A DNA stretch of 64,000 nt from Lacinutrix jangbogonensis (GTDB lineage: Bacteria > Bacteroidota > Bacteroidia > Flavobacteriales > Flavobacteriaceae), in NCBI RefSeq assembly GCF_000797445.1, contig NZ_JSWF01000014.1:186001-250000 (forward strand). Direction: 5' to 3'. How positions within the stretch are numbered: position 1 is the stretch's first letter; each line of letters starts with the position of its first letter. The notes beneath the pieces are model-generated. The model was not told the DNA's origin. It made no database searches and saw only the letters and a list, made by a program, of their open reading frames with translations. Below are positions 22,615 to 28,847 of the stretch, one piece after another. A program made the translations under genes and the position numbers.

Positions 22615-22708
22615 ATTGAGTAGCTACTATCAATTATTCTGATTACAAAGGTGGAATCCGAAAAACCTATTTTTAAATAGAGTAGGAATATTTTAAATTT
22701 TATTTATT
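22615..22708 (+). promoter_or_regulatory. upstream region of precursor 1 (duplicated copy A)
   Basis: The sequence from ATTGAG to the start codon is related to the region before precursor 2. Shared blocks are ATTGAGT-GCTAC-ATCA, a downstream TCCGAA, and TAAATAGAGTAG followed by AATTTTAAA-like sequence close to the ATG. Spacing from ATTGAG to the ATG is 94 bases here and 93 in copy B. No TAnnTTTG box is obvious, so a dedicated regulator or another promoter type is possible. Confidence 0.6.
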
Positions 22709-23041
22709 ATGGCAAATTCTAATTGTTGTTGGATAATAGTAGCAACTACTGGCTGTTCAACAGACGTTAATACAGAGAAAGCTTCCGCAGTTGCCCAAAA
22801 ATCGGCACCGGATGATTGTTGTTGGATTGTTTTAGCAACTACTGGTTGTTCAACAGAAGTACAATCTACTTCTGCAGAGGCCTCTCTAGCACGTAAAAAT
22901 GCTGTTGCAGATGATTGTTGTTGGATTGTTTTAGCAACTACTGGTTGTTCAACTGATGCAGAAACTACCAAATTAGTACAGAAAAAAACAGCAGACAGCT
23001 GTTGTTGGATTGTTGTAGCAACTACTGGTTGTTCAACTTGA
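22709..23041 (+). CDS. multi-core RiPP precursor with four CCW...TTGCST cores, no leader
   Basis: The protein has 110 residues and contains four near-identical 15-residue units, DDCCWIVLATTGCST and close variants, with Cys-Cys at 6-7, 37-38, 70-71 and 98-99. The units are joined by Ala/Lys/Glu/Ser/Thr-rich spacers of 13-18 residues. Each unit has CCW, a hydrophobic stretch, Thr-Thr and a final Cys-Ser-Thr, which is material for dehydration and thioether rings. The first unit starts only three or four residues after Met, and an in-frame stop codon at 22694 excludes a longer leader. The genes that follow encode kinase, HopA1-like lyase and LanC-like cyclase proteins, so it is read as a multi-core lanthipeptide-type precursor. 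No family is recognised. Confidence 0.82.
   Translation: MANSNCCWIIVATTGCSTDVNTEKASAVAQKSAPDDCCWIVLATTGCSTEVQSTSAEASLARKNAVADDCCWIVLATTGCSTDAETTKLVQKKTADSCCWIVVATTGCST
22718..23038 (+). repeat. four direct repeats encoding the precursor cores
   Basis: Units of about 45 bases lie at 22718-22762, 22811-22855, 22910-22954 and 22994-23038. They are nearly identical at the DNA level (GATTGTTGTTGGATTGT then TTAGCAACTACTGG then TTGTTCAAC). The spacers between them differ strongly. This fits unit duplication with selection on the core. Confidence 0.85.
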
Positions 23042-23063
23042 TACTAACTTAAGTATGTATTAA

Positions 23064-23105
23064 AAAATATTGAGGAAGGATATTAATGTCGTTCCTCAAT
23101 ATTTT
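23064..23105 (+). terminator. terminator-like hairpin between the two precursor genes
   Basis: AAAATATTGAGGAA (23064-23077) and TTCCTCAATATTTT (23092-23105) form a perfect 14-bp stem around a 14-nt loop, followed by T-rich sequence. It probably ends the precursor 1 transcript, perhaps partially, and makes this peptide message separate from the enzyme genes. Confidence 0.75.
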
Positions 23106-23168
23106 CAAATTTTTATTTTGGTTATGGTCGAAATATTTAACAATAAACTAGTCAATGAAGAACTCTTA

Positions 23169-23261
23169 ATTGAGTTGCTACAATCATTCGTGTTGGTTAG
23201 TATAGTTCAATTCCGAATAGTCTATTCTAAATAGAGTAGAATAAATTTTAAAAATACAATT
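23169..23261 (+). promoter_or_regulatory. upstream region of precursor 2 (duplicated copy B)
   Basis: This is the second copy of the region described before precursor 1: ATTGAGTTGCTACAATCA, then ATTCCGAATAG, then TAAATAGAGTAGAATAAATT before the ATG. It follows the hairpin, so it probably drives precursor 2 and the modifying-enzyme genes. Confidence 0.6.
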
Positions 23262-23551
23262 ATGACAAATAGTTCAAAAGATAAGAAGAGCAACCTGAAC
23301 GCAAATAAATTGGTTGACATCAAGATACCTTATGATTGCTGCTGGATTCCTCTTTCAACTACAATGTGTAGTACTGATCCAACGTTCGTTGTTCAAAAAA
23401 AACCAATGATGATTGTTGTTGGGTTGGAGTGTTGGGAACTACAGGGTGCACTATGGATGAACCAAGCTTAAATAAATCCTCCTTAGAACAAAATTTAACA
23501 GATAACGATTGTTGCTGGGTTGTCGTTGCTACTACTAGCTGTACAACCTAA
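23262..23551 (+). pseudogene. second multi-core RiPP precursor, frame broken (or slipped) at an A8 tract
   Basis: The start frame reads a 24-residue N-terminal segment and then core 1, YDCCWIPLSTTMCST. It runs through VVQKK and then leaves the core pattern, stopping at 23471. A shift of -1 at the eight A residues (23395-23402) gives VQKKTNDDCCWVGVLGTTGCT and then NDCCWVVVATTSCTT, ending at 23551, so three cores in about 96 residues. The VQKKT-D-CCW junction also occurs in precursor 1 (LVQKKTADSCCW), so the shifted frame is the ancestral one. Sequencing error, a one-base deletion, phase variation or productive slippage on the A tract could each explain it. The kinase gene begins 44 bases further on. 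Confidence 0.75.
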
Positions 23552-23595
23552 TGCCTTATTATGCAATATTTCTAACTTAAAATACGCTAAACTTT

Positions 23596-24708
23596 ATGTA
23601 TACTGTAAATAACATTCATCACTTTTTATTGCAAGAGAAATTAATTGATTCAGATACGGTTGTATTTGGTGATTTCGAAGTAACAAGCATTAATAGGAGG
23701 AATCAAAATATACAAGTTACAACGCTCACAGATCCTAATTTCTTGATTAAACAAGTTAAAAATTTAAAATCTGAGAATGCTCAAACCTTGAAAAGAGAAG
23801 CTCAATTCTATGACTATTTTTCAAAGTCACTTCCTAGTCTAAATAATTACCTGCCAGAAGTTAAGTATGTTGATTTGGAAAAAGTAATCCTAGTTATGAC
23901 TTTTTATAAAGATGCTATTCCGCTATGGAAGTATTACAATGAAAAGACGATTGAAAAATTTCCTTTGAAAACTACTGAGACTGTAGGAAGGTTATTGGGT
24001 GAGGTGCATAATGCATTCACTAAAGAGGAAATAATGAAAGATAAAAGATTAGATTTTTTGAACGATGAATTGCCCTTAATTTTTAATTTGTATAAACCAC
24101 ATCCCAAACGCCTTTCTTATATAGGTCGTGGTGGTTATAATTTTATTAAACACATTCAAAAAGAGGACGATATAATGATTGCATTTAATAATATTCCATC
24201 TATTTGGAAGAAGAATGCTTTAATCCATGGAGATATAAAATTAGACAACTTTATTATTCTCAATCCTGAAGATCCTGCTAGTAATCAATTGAGATTGGTA
24301 GATTGGGAAATGCTTCAATATGGCGATTTTGCTTGGGACCTTGCCGGTGTATTTAATGATTTTGTTTTTTGGTGGATAATTAATATGCCTGATAATGAAA
24401 CACCTGAAGAAATGGTAAAAAACGCAAAATTTTCTTTCGACAAATTACATCCAGCCATAAATGTTTATTGGGAAAGTTATTGTAGTACAAGAGGCTTAAC
24501 GTTTAAAGAGAACATAGAATTATTAGAAAAAGTAACCCTGTTTTCTGGCTTCAGGTTATTGCAAACATCTTTTGAAATCTCTTCAAAATTTGATGCTATT
24601 CCTCATATCGCACAATTGTTTTTAAATATGGGTAAAAGCATTATTAGAAACCCAGAACTCACTCAAGAAAAATTATTTGGAATATCAAAAAAAGAATTGA
24701 TATCATGA
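23596..24708 (+). CDS. APH-like kinase of the RiPP locus (class V LanK/TvaC-like)
   Basis: This is a stand-alone aminoglycoside-phosphotransferase-fold kinase of 370 residues. The catalytic loop is LIHGDIKLDNF (His211, Asp213, Asn218) and the metal-binding motif is LVDWE (Asp236). An N-lobe Lys lies in PNFLIKQVKN. In class V lanthipeptide and thioamitide pathways (LxmK, TvaC) such a kinase phosphorylates Ser/Thr of the precursor before elimination. The same role is inferred here because the next gene encodes a HopA1-like lyase (4-base ATGA overlap) and the precursors lie just upstream. The C-terminal helical part (about 240-370) includes WDLAGVFNDFVFWW, as in APH-type proteins. Antibiotic resistance is an unlikely alternative in this setting. 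Confidence 0.85.
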   Translation: MYTVNNIHHFLLQEKLIDSDTVVFGDFEVTSINRRNQNIQVTTLTDPNFLIKQVKNLKSENAQTLKREAQFYDYFSKSLPSLNNYLPEVKYVDLEKVILVMTFYKDAIPLWKYYNEKTIEKFPLKTTETVGRLLGEVHNAFTKEEIMKDKRLDFLNDELPLIFNLYKPHPKRLSYIGRGGYNFIKHIQKEDDIMIAFNNIPSIWKKNALIHGDIKLDNFIILNPEDPASNQLRLVDWEMLQYGDFAWDLAGVFNDFVFWWIINMPDNETPEEMVKNAKFSFDKLHPAINVYWESYCSTRGLTFKENIELLEKVTLFSGFRLLQTSFEISSKFDAIPHIAQLFLNMGKSIIRNPELTQEKLFGISKKELIS

Positions 24709-25751
24709 TAAAAACGAAACTTCACAAAGACATTCAAGAGGTATTAAATGCTGTTGAAATTTTAACCGAGACCTCTTACAATATCAAAGATATTCAAAGA
24801 GATTTGACTCAAATAAAATTAAAATCAGATGATGGAGAGGTACTTCAAAAAGACCCTAAGAGAAATGATTTATTTTTTAAAGAAATTCTTAGATCCGATA
24901 TTTATAATCAACTATACAAGTTTAATGTTCCAGATAAAAACAGCTTTTTGGGAGAAGTAATGAATGGTAACTTTTTAGAAAATTTATCCAATGCAAATAA
25001 TGGTTCAGGAACTTGGGAAGATAATTGGCTAATTGTAGGCGAAGAATTCAGTACTGGGAAAATAATTGTGAAGAAAAAAGATATTATGTTTTGGGTTAAC
25101 AAAGATGAAGTAATAAGCAGTAATGAATCTTATGTTAACAACACACCATGCCTTGTGAAAATAGAAAAAGAGATTAAAAACTTAAACCCAAGTTTTTATA
25201 TGGTATTTGGAAATACGAATAAGGAGAAAATTAATAAATTTGAAAATCAATTAACCCGTTTCTATTGGAATTTAACTCCTACAGGTGCTATTAAATATAT
25301 AAAACTTGTTACGGAAAGATTAAACGAAAAAAAATGTTGTTTCCGTACTAAAGTACTTTCTAATCCTCAAGAATACAATAGATCAGATGCTGGAGTTTTA
25401 TATTTAGATACAAGCCAACTATCAGTCGCTCTTCCAATTATTATGGAGATTTACAACGACCTTAAATCTTATTTAAAAGACAAAACACCACTCTTTTCAA
25501 AACAGCTTGCTAGAGGCTTAAGTTTTGCCGAAGACCCACAAGATGGTAATAGTTTTGGGATTTCGAGAGCAGAAATTATAAGTGATACCTTATATGATTG
25601 CTTTCAAAATAAAATTTTATCAAAGAATGAAATTTCTAATGAAATCTGTTCTTCGTTTTTATCCAAAGGAATTAATCCCAACTATCCATATTGTTCACAA
25701 TCAAAATTGGACAACTATGAAATTTTATTAAACTCAATAATCTTAAATTAA
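24705..25751 (+). CDS. HopA1-like lyase of the RiPP locus (class V LanY/TvaD-like)
   Basis: This 348-residue protein belongs to the family annotated as T3SS effector HopA1. In RiPP clusters its members act with an APH-like kinase to eliminate phosphate from Ser/Thr (LxmY, TvaD). The family pattern is clear. The central FYWNLTPTGAIKYIKLV region is followed by FRTKVLSNPQEYNRSDAGVL. Near the C-terminus LARGLSFAEDPQDGNSFG (Glu276-Asp277) matches the conserved A-E-D-P-x-D-G-x-SFG block. It overlaps the kinase gene by four bases and precedes the cyclase gene by three, so the three are translated together. No secretion signal is present, which argues against an effector role. Confidence 0.85.
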   Translation: MIKTKLHKDIQEVLNAVEILTETSYNIKDIQRDLTQIKLKSDDGEVLQKDPKRNDLFFKEILRSDIYNQLYKFNVPDKNSFLGEVMNGNFLENLSNANNGSGTWEDNWLIVGEEFSTGKIIVKKKDIMFWVNKDEVISSNESYVNNTPCLVKIEKEIKNLNPSFYMVFGNTNKEKINKFENQLTRFYWNLTPTGAIKYIKLVTERLNEKKCCFRTKVLSNPQEYNRSDAGVLYLDTSQLSVALPIIMEIYNDLKSYLKDKTPLFSKQLARGLSFAEDPQDGNSFGISRAEIISDTLYDCFQNKILSKNEISNEICSSFLSKGINPNYPYCSQSKLDNYEILLNSIILN

Positions 25752-25754
25752 ACG

Positions 25755-27056
25755 ATGGAGACACTTCAAATAGACTCTACTAAAGAAACCTTATTAAATG
25801 CTGCTTTAGAGATAGGAGATCATTTAATATCTACAGCAATTTGGGACTCAACTTCAACATATTGTACCTGGAATGGTGCTCGTGATATTCAAGATGCTCA
25901 AATTGCAAAATACTCAAAAAGAGTTTCGATTTTGAGTCCTGAATTTTATAGTGGAACTGGTGGAGTTGCTTATTTTTTAATAGAACTTTACCACAACACA
26001 CAAAATGAGGAATATAAAAAAATTGCTTTAGGAGCATGGATGAGATCCATTAATTACATGAGAATTAATGACTTTCCAGCTTCTTCTATTTCTTTTTATG
26101 CTGGAGATTTAGGCTTAATTTTTGTTGGTTACAGATTTCTTGAAGTAGATAACAGTCTTGGTGAGGCCATTCAACCACATTTAGATTGGTTGATATCTAA
26201 CTTAAAAAATGGTTTAAATGATAAACATTCTTTAGATATTATAGGAGGAAATGCAGGAGCTATTCCTGTTTTACTAGAATTAAAAAGAAAGTACAATTTA
26301 GATATTTTTGAAAAAGTAGCAACCGATTGTACTGAAGAATTAATAAGCCTTGCACAATGGAAAGATGATATGTGTATTTGGTCATCTCATAAAGTACATG
26401 GCGTAGAACTGGATACGCCTCCTACCACAGGTTATTCTCATGGAGCATCTGGTTTGGCAGTAGCGTTGTTAGAAGCTTATCAGTATTTTGGAGATAACAA
26501 ATACCTTAAACATGGAAGAGGATCATTTACTTTCGAAAACTCCTTATTTAATGACGAAGAAGGGAATTGGGTAGATACTAGATATCCACATGTAAAACGA
26601 AATGGAAAAATAACTGGAACATTCAGATCTGCATGGTGCCATGGCGCACCAGGCATTGCTTTAGCTAACCTAAGGGCAGCATTCTTAGATACGGGTAACA
26701 GTGAGCTTTATTTTGAAAAAGCTCGCATCGCTATTAATACAACAAAAACTTTGTTATTGGAAAAAATAGAATCACTTCCTGAAAAAGATGCAACGCTATG
26801 CCATGGGATTTTAGGTTTGTCGGATATAATTTTTAGTTATGCTCAAAAACTAAATAACGAAGAGCTGATGTCATTTTCAAGAGCAATTACTTTAGATTAT
26901 ATTTCCAAATTTAAGAATGTTATTTCATTGCCATCAGGTATTGTTGCCGGCGGTTATAATCCATCTATTATGGTAGGACTTTCTGGTATTGGATTACATT
27001 GTCTAAGATTATACTCTAATGAAAATATAAGTAGCCCATTAATTTGTGTATTATAG
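25755..27056 (+). CDS. LanC-like cyclase of the RiPP locus
   Basis: This is a 433-residue lanthionine-synthetase C-like protein, stand-alone as in class I systems. The three family motifs are complete: GYSHGASG (His229), SAWCHGAPG (Cys295, His296) and TLCHGILG (Cys349, His350). These give the zinc ligands and the general acid/base His. The end, PSIMVGLSGIGLHCLRLY, is also typical, so the gene appears full length. LanC enzymes add Cys thiols to dehydrated Ser/Thr. Lexapeptide-type class V clusters use a different protein (LxmX) for this step, so a kinase, HopA1 and LanC set is a distinct arrangement. It is the last intact gene of the operon before the IS element. Confidence 0.9.
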   Translation: METLQIDSTKETLLNAALEIGDHLISTAIWDSTSTYCTWNGARDIQDAQIAKYSKRVSILSPEFYSGTGGVAYFLIELYHNTQNEEYKKIALGAWMRSINYMRINDFPASSISFYAGDLGLIFVGYRFLEVDNSLGEAIQPHLDWLISNLKNGLNDKHSLDIIGGNAGAIPVLLELKRKYNLDIFEKVATDCTEELISLAQWKDDMCIWSSHKVHGVELDTPPTTGYSHGASGLAVALLEAYQYFGDNKYLKHGRGSFTFENSLFNDEEGNWVDTRYPHVKRNGKITGTFRSAWCHGAPGIALANLRAAFLDTGNSELYFEKARIAINTTKTLLLEKIESLPEKDATLCHGILGLSDIIFSYAQKLNNEELMSFSRAITLDYISKFKNVISLPSGIVAGGYNPSIMVGLSGIGLHCLRLYSNENISSPLICVL

Positions 27057-27177: not shown

Positions 27178-27200
27178 TTAAAACCTGAGTTCGACGTAAG
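27178..27200 (+). repeat. IS left end: target duplication plus inverted repeat
   Basis: TTAAA is followed by ACCTGAGTTCGACGTAAG. The ends of IS982-family elements begin with ACC. Confidence 0.9.
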
Positions 27201-28212
27201 GAATTAATAAAAAAGAGTTAATTGTGAAGATTTTTCTGTTTCAAATTTAATGCTAGGTTTCTTTTCTTGAAAAGAATAAGCCATAAGACTAGCTACTAAA
27301 TTAGTAATGAAATTAGCAAAACTTCTATGCCTAGAATGCTCCGCGTGAGCTATATTTTTAAGTTGATCATTTATAGTTTCTATAACAGACCGTTTTCTAA
27401 GTAATATTTTATCTCTCATGGTCATTATCACATTTTTCATATTGTTTCTAATACCCGTTATTAGGTGCAACCCTTGATCGAATAGTAAAGCCGATAATTG
27501 CTTAGATATATAACCTTTATCTGCATATAAACTCCCAAATATTTTCTTTAAAAAGTGGTCTTCTTTTAAAGGTGTTCTGTCATCCACATTGGCTTGAGTA
27601 ATAATAAAGTCAAGGAGTTCGCCTTTATCATTGACAATAACATGAAGTTTAAAACCGTAAAACCATCCCATTGTAGATTTACCAATAGTTGCAATCCCTT
27701 TAAATACTTTATTCTGACGTATACGTTTCTTTTTACAGGCTCGTATTGGTGTTGAATCTATAAAAGAAATACCAGTACATTTACCAAGGCAACACATTTT
27801 CATAAACAGGGTTAGTGGTAGTATATTAGCTTGCATAAGTTCTACAAAACGATTATAAGACACTGTATTTGGGAACTCTTGCTTTAAATGTTTTTGCACA
27901 TAGAAAATATAGAAGTGCTTGAAGGTTCTTATACCACTTAAATGAAATAGAACGGTAAGGCTTACTATCTCACTCATAGACATTGTAGATTTTCTATTTC
28001 TGCTCTTTTTACCAGTGGAAAGCAGTCTTTTTCTTAAAGCTGGCTCAAAAACAAGGCAAAAATCATCAATAGAACAGAAAATTTCAGTAATTTTATCATT
28101 AGAAATCATAAGCAGGATGTTTTTTAATATATTGAAAAACAACACTTTAATATGCTAAATATTCTGCTTTTTTCGATACTAAAAAACCTCTTTTCTTACG
28201 TCGAACTCAGGT
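27183..28212 (-). mobile_element. IS982-family insertion sequence, complete
   Basis: The element is 1030 bp long with perfect 18-bp terminal inverted repeats (ACCTGAGTTCGACGTAAG at 27183-27200 and its complement at 28195-28212). A 5-bp target duplication TTAAA flanks it (27178-27182 and 28213-28217). One transposase gene fills it. Identical ends and an intact duplication suggest recent insertion. Confidence 0.92.
27204..28145 (-). CDS. IS982-family transposase
   Basis: This is a 313-residue DDE transposase. The first catalytic Asp is in SFIDSTPIRACK, the second in FGSLYADKGYIS and the Glu in KRSVIETINDQLKNI, matching the IS982 pattern with Y-x-x-K-G-Y. The N-terminal part (about 20-110) is helical and likely binds the ends. 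The frame is intact, so the element could still be active. It is transcribed toward the cyclase gene, and its product ends about 20 bases inside the left end. Confidence 0.94.
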   Translation of the reverse strand: MLFFNILKNILLMISNDKITEIFCSIDDFCLVFEPALRKRLLSTGKKSRNRKSTMSMSEIVSLTVLFHLSGIRTFKHFYIFYVQKHLKQEFPNTVSYNRFVELMQANILPLTLFMKMCCLGKCTGISFIDSTPIRACKKKRIRQNKVFKGIATIGKSTMGWFYGFKLHVIVNDKGELLDFIITQANVDDRTPLKEDHFLKKIFGSLYADKGYISKQLSALLFDQGLHLITGIRNNMKNVIMTMRDKILLRKRSVIETINDQLKNIAHAEHSRHRSFANFITNLVASLMAYSFQEKKPSIKFETEKSSQLTLFY

Positions 28213-28217
28213 TTAAA
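28195..28217 (-). repeat. IS right end: inverted repeat plus target duplication
   Basis: CTTACGTCGAACTCAGGT followed by TTAAA, complementary to the left end. Confidence 0.9.
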
Positions 28218-28439: not shown

Positions 28440-28847
28440 CTAATCAAAAACATTCCGCTGTGCGAGAGATTTTCCGAAGAAAAAACCAGCAATAACTCCA
28501 ACAACTTCAGCAATTACAAATCCTGTTTCTTTTGGTAAGCCAAACGTAACAAAGGCTGTTGCTAAAATCATAATTCCAGCTACACTATAAGCAGGAATCA
28601 TACTCGTTTTAGAAATTAAACCAGCGACAAACATACCAGTTATAATGCCCATAAAATGGCCTATAACCACAAATATTTTCGCGCCAGTTGGAATACTAGC
28701 CATATTATTTTTTATCCATTCCATATCACTAGGATCTGATCCTTTTGGTAATGGAAAAAAAGTATGTCCAAGAAGGTTTTCGAAAAGATGAACAGCTAGT
28801 GCTGCGGCTATAAATCCTACGATAGTGGCAACTATATTTCTAAGCAT
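28440..28847 (-). CDS. small four-helix membrane protein (unknown function)
   Basis: This 135-residue protein has four hydrophobic helices (about 3-23, 57-77, 83-100 and 105-125), many with small-residue patterns (GHFMGIITGMFVAGLI, VVGVIAGFFFGKSL). Loop 1 carries FPLPKGSDPSDMEWIKNNM. Similar small proteins occur in Bacteroidota from memory, with no assigned role. It is monocistronic and opposite in strand to the RiPP operon, so it is probably unrelated to it. Confidence 0.7.
   Translation of the reverse strand: MLRNIVATIVGFIAAALAVHLFENLLGHTFFPLPKGSDPSDMEWIKNNMASIPTGAKIFVVIGHFMGIITGMFVAGLISKTSMIPAYSVAGIMILATAFVTFGLPKETGFVIAEVVGVIAGFFFGKSLAQRNVFD

Follow-up and report, generated by a model that had tools for sequence, protein, structure and literature searches.

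We analysed a window of 64,000 nucleotides from the flavobacterium Lacinutrix jangbogonensis (contig NZ_JSWF01000014.1, positions 186,001 to 250,000), in which a short gene cluster encodes two peptides, A1 and A2, followed by a predicted kinase (K), lyase (Y) and cyclase (C) of lanthipeptide type. All positions given below without a locus name are those of the window, and the cluster comprises the following features.

22648-22688, plus strand: DUF805b RNA (Rfam RF02914), a structured 5' element, 43.3 bits (gathering threshold 35.6)
22709-23041, plus strand: A1, a leaderless, tandem-core precursor of 110 residues with 12 Cys, 28 Ser/Thr and four cores
22724-22762, plus strand: A1 core 1, CCWIIVATTGCST
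22817-22855, plus strand: A1 core 2, CCWIVLATTGCST
22916-22954, plus strand: A1 core 3, CCWIVLATTGCST
23000-23038, plus strand: A1 core 4, CCWIVVATTGCST, abutting the stop codon
23262-23551, plus strand: A2, a second, frameshifted precursor gene with open reading frames (ORFs) at 23262-23471 and 23429-23551, translated separately
23596-24708, plus strand: K, a LanK-type kinase of APH fold (PF01636, E = 1.2e-10; AlphaFold model)
24705-25751, plus strand: Y, a LanY-type phospho-Ser/Thr lyase of the HopA1 family (PF17914, E = 1.5e-39)
25755-27056, plus strand: C, a stand-alone zinc LanC cyclase of the LanM C-terminal type (PF05147, E = 5.1e-53, 180.3 bits)

A1 starts with the five residues MANSN, which are followed directly by core 1, and its cores share the 13-residue pattern CCWIxxATTGCST. 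The linkers between them are 18, 20 and 15 residues long, with Asp or Glu at the start and mostly Asp at the end. At an identity of at least 9/13, the 13-mer was present in four copies in A1 versus one copy in 500 of 500 shuffles of the A1 protein; together with the like cores of a Tenacibaculum contig described below, this rules out a chance repeat. A degenerate core DNA pattern occurred five times in the 4.0 Mb genome, four times in A1 and once in the third unit of A2. As a gene structure, the tandem-core precursor can be stated with high confidence. Lanthipeptide enzymes typically need an N-terminal leader for precursor recognition, and A1 does not fit the usual precursor form of an N-terminal leader with one C-terminal core. 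Because an in-frame stop lies at 22694, four codons 5' of the A1 ATG, an alternative start cannot supply a leader.

In A2, 25 residues precede the first core and the frame is lost at a run of eight A (23395-23402), so that its CCW units start at 23337 in the first frame and at 23414 and 23510 in the other, which may reflect a real lesion, slippage or a sequencing error. A preliminary description of this DNA had placed two multi-core peptide genes at the head of the cluster. A1 indeed carries four near-identical CCW...CST units, whereas A2 is not one open frame. The gene positions and motifs of that description were correct (HGDIKLDN and DWE in K, AEDPQDGNSFG in Y, three zinc ligands in C), as was the coupling it described, with four bases shared by the K and Y genes and a 3-base gap before C.

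K is a stand-alone APH-family kinase (42 bits against PF01636, cut-off 23.2). AlphaFold models of K and Y were built from eight-sequence alignments and then searched against the PDB. For the K model (predicted local distance difference test (pLDDT) 82, predicted template modelling score (pTM) 0.84), the top three matches were the A chains of the lexapeptide dehydratase LxmKY (9dk1-9dk3), the best being 9dk3_A (E = 1.1e-13, template modelling (TM) score 0.73). Small-molecule kinases came next, from 1.1e-8 on, and the match to TvaE (8jsu, 3.3e-5) was much weaker than that to LxmK.

Y is likewise a stand-alone protein (136 bits against PF17914, cut-off 22.7). The top three PDB matches of its model were the B chains of the same LxmKY structures (best 9dk3_B, E = 4e-16), and 9dk1_B ranked first (1.2e-9) when a sequence profile of four Y proteins was compared with the PDB. 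Residues R185, K216, R226 and Y233 of Y are invariant in all eight homologues and are the equivalents of CaoY R187, K219, R229 and Y236; the K+10 and K+17 spacing is common to both proteins, and the R-to-K distance is 31 in Y and 32 in CaoY. Among CaoY mutants, K219A was inactive, R187A nearly inactive and R229Q inefficient, and Tyr236 is conserved with SpvC (PMC9486802; papers given by PubMed Central (PMC) number are represented throughout by excerpts). In predicted fold and catalytic residues, K and the HopA1-like Y resemble the dehydratase pair of class V lanthipeptides.

C matched the LanM model TIGR03897 (E = 5.4e-72) at model positions 543-931 only, with 242.9 bits against a cut-off of 304, and its zinc ligands C295, C349 and H350 are invariant in nine of nine sequences. 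A class II LanM fragment was ruled out, as the LanM dehydratase domain is missing, and a class I LanC was ruled out by a LanC tree of 28 domains. For this tree, 11 of the 20 loci listed were used (L058, L062-L071), those left out being K-Y-C loci already in the tree, a LanM N-terminal part and weak matches; its plasmid rows, five LanM and three HopA1-LanC fusions, came from 62 plasmid records with a LanC match. The fusions lie beside an APH kinase at the following positions.

L021, 5980-8382: HopA1-LanC fusion, Deinococcus plasmid
L024, 5881-8130: HopA1-LanC fusion, Pseudonocardia plasmid
L025, 4515-6848: HopA1-LanC fusion, Rhizobium plasmid

The nine K-Y-C cyclases in the tree formed one clade (95/91; in 94% of bootstrap trees), which was joined (98/95) with the cyclase parts of the Deinococcus and Rhizobium fusions as its nearest outside relatives. 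Six LanM cyclase domains were grouped (95/94), and ten stand-alone flavobacterial LanCs were separate (100/100). The third fusion, from Pseudonocardia, formed a long branch outside the joined clade in a tree that carries a long-branch warning and an unusual letter make-up in several rows, including all three fusions. The kinase adjoining the fusion matched K in each of the three loci read. Given the tree and these kinases, we regard the flavobacterial system as one branch of an existing lineage that combines a kinase, a HopA1 lyase and a LanC.

Class V has been split into class Va, with LanK, LanY, LanD and LanX and no LanC, and class Vb, with LanK, LanY and LanC, as for mSmoA (PMC12291118); the split is repeated in PMC12328550, which names SmoC and SpcC as class Vb cyclases. 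The cluster contains a LanC cyclase with zinc ligands, and a Pfam search found neither of the class Va proteins, LanD decarboxylase and LanX, among the cluster proteins and 20 other proteins of the window. We assign the enzymes to the class Vb type with high confidence. The preliminary description had recognized a class V-type kinase and HopA1-lyase pair with a LanC beside tandem Cys/Thr cores, which is borne out by the folds and residues above. It had also suggested an undescribed subclass, a proposal that we abandon because kinase, lyase and LanC together are the published class Vb (PMC12291118, PMC12328550); a non-LanC cyclase, which it had ascribed to class V, applies to class Va only, to judge from the same excerpts. 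A search against models of ribosomally synthesized and post-translationally modified peptides (RiPPs), which it had proposed, matched K to the LxmK equivalog NF038156 (82.7 bits, cut-off 315, a relative and not the same equivalog) and C to TIGR03897, both below cut-off. What looks new is the substrate, a leaderless tandem-core precursor, whose tandem cores had been named only in passing.

We found K-Y-C operons in nine different flavobacterial genomes, namely the present one, a Tenacibaculum metagenome-assembled genome (L013), a Lacinutrix isolate of the same genus (L012), five Kordia genomes (L006, L007, L014, L016, L019) and a draft (L008), which contains gaps, with a TAG in frame within Y, and was counted for C and precursors only. 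A pattern scan of genome contigs yielded 7 loci out of 60 pattern matches, and three of these loci repeat genomes already included, with identical BLAST rows (L015 = L007, L017 = L006, L018 = L012). By BLAST identity to the window, the Tenacibaculum proteins reach 53% (K), 53% (Y) and 62.5% (C), and the other K-Y-C loci 23-39%. In searches with PF17914, 5 of 397 genomes of the family (this one and G105 among them) and 1 of 296 of the order gave a match; the Y profile matched 1 of 395 of the phylum, the single genome being this one in both cases. The weak HopA1 match of G105 (L009, 22 bits) was dropped, as K, Y and C all gave no match at that locus. The K-Y-C system is rare and patchy in the sampled genomes.

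Upstream of K, each of the nine loci carries a repeat precursor rich in Cys/Thr, tandem or giant. In Tenacibaculum it comprises 108 residues with four cores of the CCWIxxATTGCST plan, six residues before the first core and linkers of 14, 17 and 19 residues. The precursor of Lacinutrix L012 has 489 residues, with nine PVVSC-centred repeats after an N-terminal part of ~180 residues, and the six Kordia-type precursors (290-585 residues) contain 27-60 Cys and 10-26 T-[GAS]-x-x-x-C motifs. The ratio of nonsynonymous to synonymous substitution (dN/dS) between the window and Tenacibaculum was ~0.23 for K, ~0.27 for Y and ~0.25 for C. In 4 x 4 comparisons of their cores, the nonsynonymous difference (pN) was 0.044 and the synonymous difference (pS) 0.355, whereas pN of the enzymes was 0.25-0.29; the linkers were too dissimilar for alignment. 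The low core pN beside this pS indicates drift of the core DNA under a constrained peptide sequence. Such silent change with a near-constant sequence would be expected of a core peptide that is itself the product.

We interpret the locus as a compact lanthipeptide cluster of class Vb type whose multi-core substrate lacks a leader, and put the probability of this at roughly three in four. Sequence, predicted folds and comparison show what the enzymes are, their zinc and catalytic residues, the repeated and conserved cores and the missing N-terminal leader of A1; activity, ring pattern, recognition of core or linker in place of a leader, cleavage, export and function are what we infer, along the following lines. 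K would phosphorylate Ser/Thr in the repeated A1 cores, and Y would remove the phosphate by elimination to leave dehydroalanine or dehydrobutyrine (Dha/Dhb). C would then add Cys thiols to form (methyl)lanthionine ((Me)Lan) rings in each CCWIxxATTGCST unit, and a protease encoded outside the cluster would cut the linkers, so that each precursor would release as many as four nearly identical thioether peptides of 13 residues. In the six Kordia-type loci, a candidate core-releasing protease is the ~510-residue S53/subtilase-like protein beside the giant precursors (e.g. L007 4927-6459); Pfam assigns it to Peptidase_S8 with a weak pro-kumamolisin match.

Several results weigh against this interpretation. 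The equivalog score of K is low, and a profile of four K proteins compared with PDB sequences retrieved choline kinase and ACAD11 chains and no LxmK, so K is linked to LxmK through NF038156 and the fold. Confidence in the Y model is moderate (pLDDT 72, pTM 0.56), and its superposition on LxmY is loose (TM ~0.5, root-mean-square deviation ~10). The dS between the window and Tenacibaculum is 1.2-1.55, near saturation. A Pfam scan of the 20 other window proteins found no cluster-specific exporter, protease or aminovinylcysteine (AviCys) enzyme, and the Kordia S53-like protease gave zero matches in this genome in a search run without a positive control. To these come a possible leader in trans and signs of decay, both considered below.

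Leaderless recognition is plausible. Tentatively, and at somewhat less than even odds, K, Y and C might read the core or linker with no leader, the Kordia leader domain now being a separate protein that acts in trans on the giant precursors. Five of the six Kordia-type loci, L008 being the exception, encode a small protein of 136-158 residues (e.g. L015 5034-5450) that carries FFQGDIY[QN]Q[YF], and LLQGDIYNNY occurs in the Lacinutrix precursor, ~10 residues ahead of the first repeat. The resemblance of the small protein to the N-terminal part of a class Vb peptide ORF located upstream of the Deinococcus kinase (L021 4114-4683) is weak: in a small-protein search of six sequences, Deinococcus scored 15.4 bits, Lacinutrix 10.0 and the rest <1. 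An [FL][FL]QG motif is common to the Kordia protein, the Deinococcus ORF, the Lacinutrix precursor and one of two Pseudonocardia peptides, the other having FFDG. Kordia may therefore keep its leader as a separate protein, although with such low scores this is a lead only.

The same arrangement could in principle apply to the present cluster, with a separate leader-domain protein activating the class Vb enzymes and A1 being a core array only. The pairing, in five Kordia-type loci, of a giant precursor that has no obvious leader with a small protein resembling the Deinococcus N-terminal part points in this direction, as does the related motif in the Lacinutrix precursor. However, a profile of the Kordia small protein (A7) gave zero matches at E <=1 in this genome while recovering both Kordia control genomes, a negative that is weak because the profile also missed G675, the Lacinutrix genome with the motif-bearing precursor, and gave only a broken 16.5-bit match in G079. 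Such a small protein was not seen in the Tenacibaculum locus either. We regard a leader in trans as unlikely for A1.

The surroundings of the cluster bear on whether it is still in use. Behind C, the following features are present.

27181-28214, minus strand: IS982-family insertion sequence with 20-bp perfect terminal inverted repeats (27181-27200 and 28195-28214)
27204-28145, minus strand: IS982 transposase (NF033520, E = 1.1e-78)

The element begins 124 bp after the stop codon of the LanC gene. The cluster is flanked by an M23 peptidase gene and a small gene (28440-28847) without a Pfam family; in six same-genus regions, the counterparts of these flanks lie 67 bp apart (L045) or ~1.2-3.3 kb apart (the other five), in no case with K-Y-C between them, and the K-Y-C genes of Lacinutrix L012 sit elsewhere on their contig. 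The flank spacing in relatives and the IS982 element behind LanC suggest a cassette at a variable site. A foreign base composition was not seen, the GC content being ordinary (0.318 in the cluster vs 0.321 in the window). The A2 frameshift at the A8 run and the IS element behind the operon mean that the cluster could be decaying: a horizontally acquired cassette with a broken second precursor, whose product is no longer made. The scatter within the genus fits this, with a LanC relative in 2 of 13 same-genus genomes, at different places, and K-Y-C in none of the six flank regions read. On the other hand, A1, K, Y and C are all open, dN/dS is ~0.25 and the structured 5' element preceding A1 exceeds the gathering threshold, and we think a decaying or silent cluster improbable. 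That the Cys-rich repeats are metal-binding or disulfide peptides while K-Y-C acts on another target would suit their adjacent Cys pairs and very high Cys content, but is scarcely credible beside a peptide gene upstream of K in nine loci, with Cys paired with Ser/Thr, and short peptide ORFs, with Cys and Ser/Thr, next to the kinase in the three fused HopA1-LanC loci read.

The 20 scanned window proteins mostly belong to housekeeping or surface-polysaccharide families, three being without family. A MatE efflux protein is encoded 12 kb upstream of the cluster, and genes for polysaccharide export lie 12 kb downstream of it. Each of the 13 same-genus genomes has a counterpart of the M23 gene, which is therefore not cluster-specific. 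A defence system was ruled out, as K, Y and C are all without a PADLOC match.

The DUF805b RNA ends 20 nt before the A1 ATG and is the sole Rfam gathering match in the window. In Tenacibaculum (6439-6473 of L013), DUF805b ends 22 nt before the precursor start, and in Lacinutrix L012 (5656-5726) the sister family DUF805 ends 14 nt before it; the six Kordia-type loci gave no gathering-level match to either family. The matches number at least 2 in this genome and at least 34 across 13 genomes of the genus, both lower bounds with 150 candidates scored per genome. Behind the 18 of 33 other copies whose downstream sequence was read, the longest ORF starts at a distance of ~18-30 nt from the element, and the genes are of various kinds. 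The idea that the RNA marks RiPP genes alone was dropped because of the varied genes following other copies; two short ORFs behind such copies (L095, L102) do look like RiPP precursors. We take the DUF805b RNA as a putative 5' control element common to A1 and other genes.

HopA1-family genes also occur in other plasmid settings. The fusion-and-kinase loci resemble a two-gene version of class Vb. On Aliiroseovarius crassostreae plasmids (H7-H11, H20-H24), HopA1 and LanC matches are adjacent, and 19.5 kb plasmids of Pediococcus pentosaceus (H14-H16) encode a HopA1-family protein. Cyanobacterial plasmids (L022 4485-6810; L026 1240-4925) carry a HopA1 gene and an aldo/keto reductase, with no LanC among annotated features; in Tolypothrix an annotated kinase precedes the HopA1 gene, and short Cys-free peptide genes are present, four of them near-identical in Nostoc. 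These loci perhaps make Dha/Dhb peptides without thioethers. A Runella rosea plasmid (L023 6998-8609) has short kinase and short HopA1-like genes, again with no LanC among annotated features.

LanK-LanY precursor recognition has been called poorly understood (PMC9486802), and a leaderless, repeat-built substrate, if confirmed, would allow a direct test of it. It would also be a multi-core case in lanthipeptides, where, according to an introduction from July 2026, none had been reported (PMC13343206), and one gene would then simply yield many copies or variants of a stapled peptide. Class V-type peptides were found only in actinobacteria according to a 2025 review (PMC12328550); the present loci extend class V-type enzymes, together with matching precursors, to Flavobacteriaceae, Kordia algicida among them. 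A report of class V or multi-core lanthipeptides with this arrangement in Bacteroidota or Kordia was not found among the entries listed and the excerpts covered of the open-licence PMC literature. Excerpts of three papers mention Kordia RiPP clusters, with no class V or multi-core lanthipeptide seen in them (PMC10734526, PMC7477175, PMC11118758). Since one of these mentions a LanC beside a nucleotidyltransferase in Kordia (PMC11118758), the Kordia loci may already have been seen and filed under another heading.

Among known systems, class Vb (mSmoA/SmoC; SpcC of Streptomyces pathocidini) shares LanK, LanY and LanC with the cluster, and only (Me)Lan rings are described for it; it differs in that the excerpts refer to a leader peptide and do not mention tandem cores, whereas the present system is flavobacterial, leaderless and tandem (PMC12291118, PMC12328550). 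The thioamitide pair TvaC/TvaD also combines an APH kinase with a HopA1-like lyase (PMC9486802), but the cluster here has no further modification gene. Class Va (lexapeptide LxmKY, cacaoidin CaoKY, rosin) is alike in the dehydratase pair, as judged from predicted fold and catalytic residues, and unlike in that our cluster has a LanC, with LanD/LanX not found in it or in the scanned neighbours. The fused HopA1-LanC loci on plasmids of Deinococcus sp. QL22, Pseudonocardia and Rhizobium johnstonii would provide the same three activities; there, however, Y and C form one protein of 749-800 residues, and the peptide ORFs appear to consist of a long N-terminal part and one Cys-rich end. In multi-core precursors such as those of cyanobactins, short recognition or cleavage sequences separate the cores. 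The cluster resembles cyanobactins and other multi-core RiPPs in its repeated cores per precursor and differs from them in its chemistry (PMC13343206).

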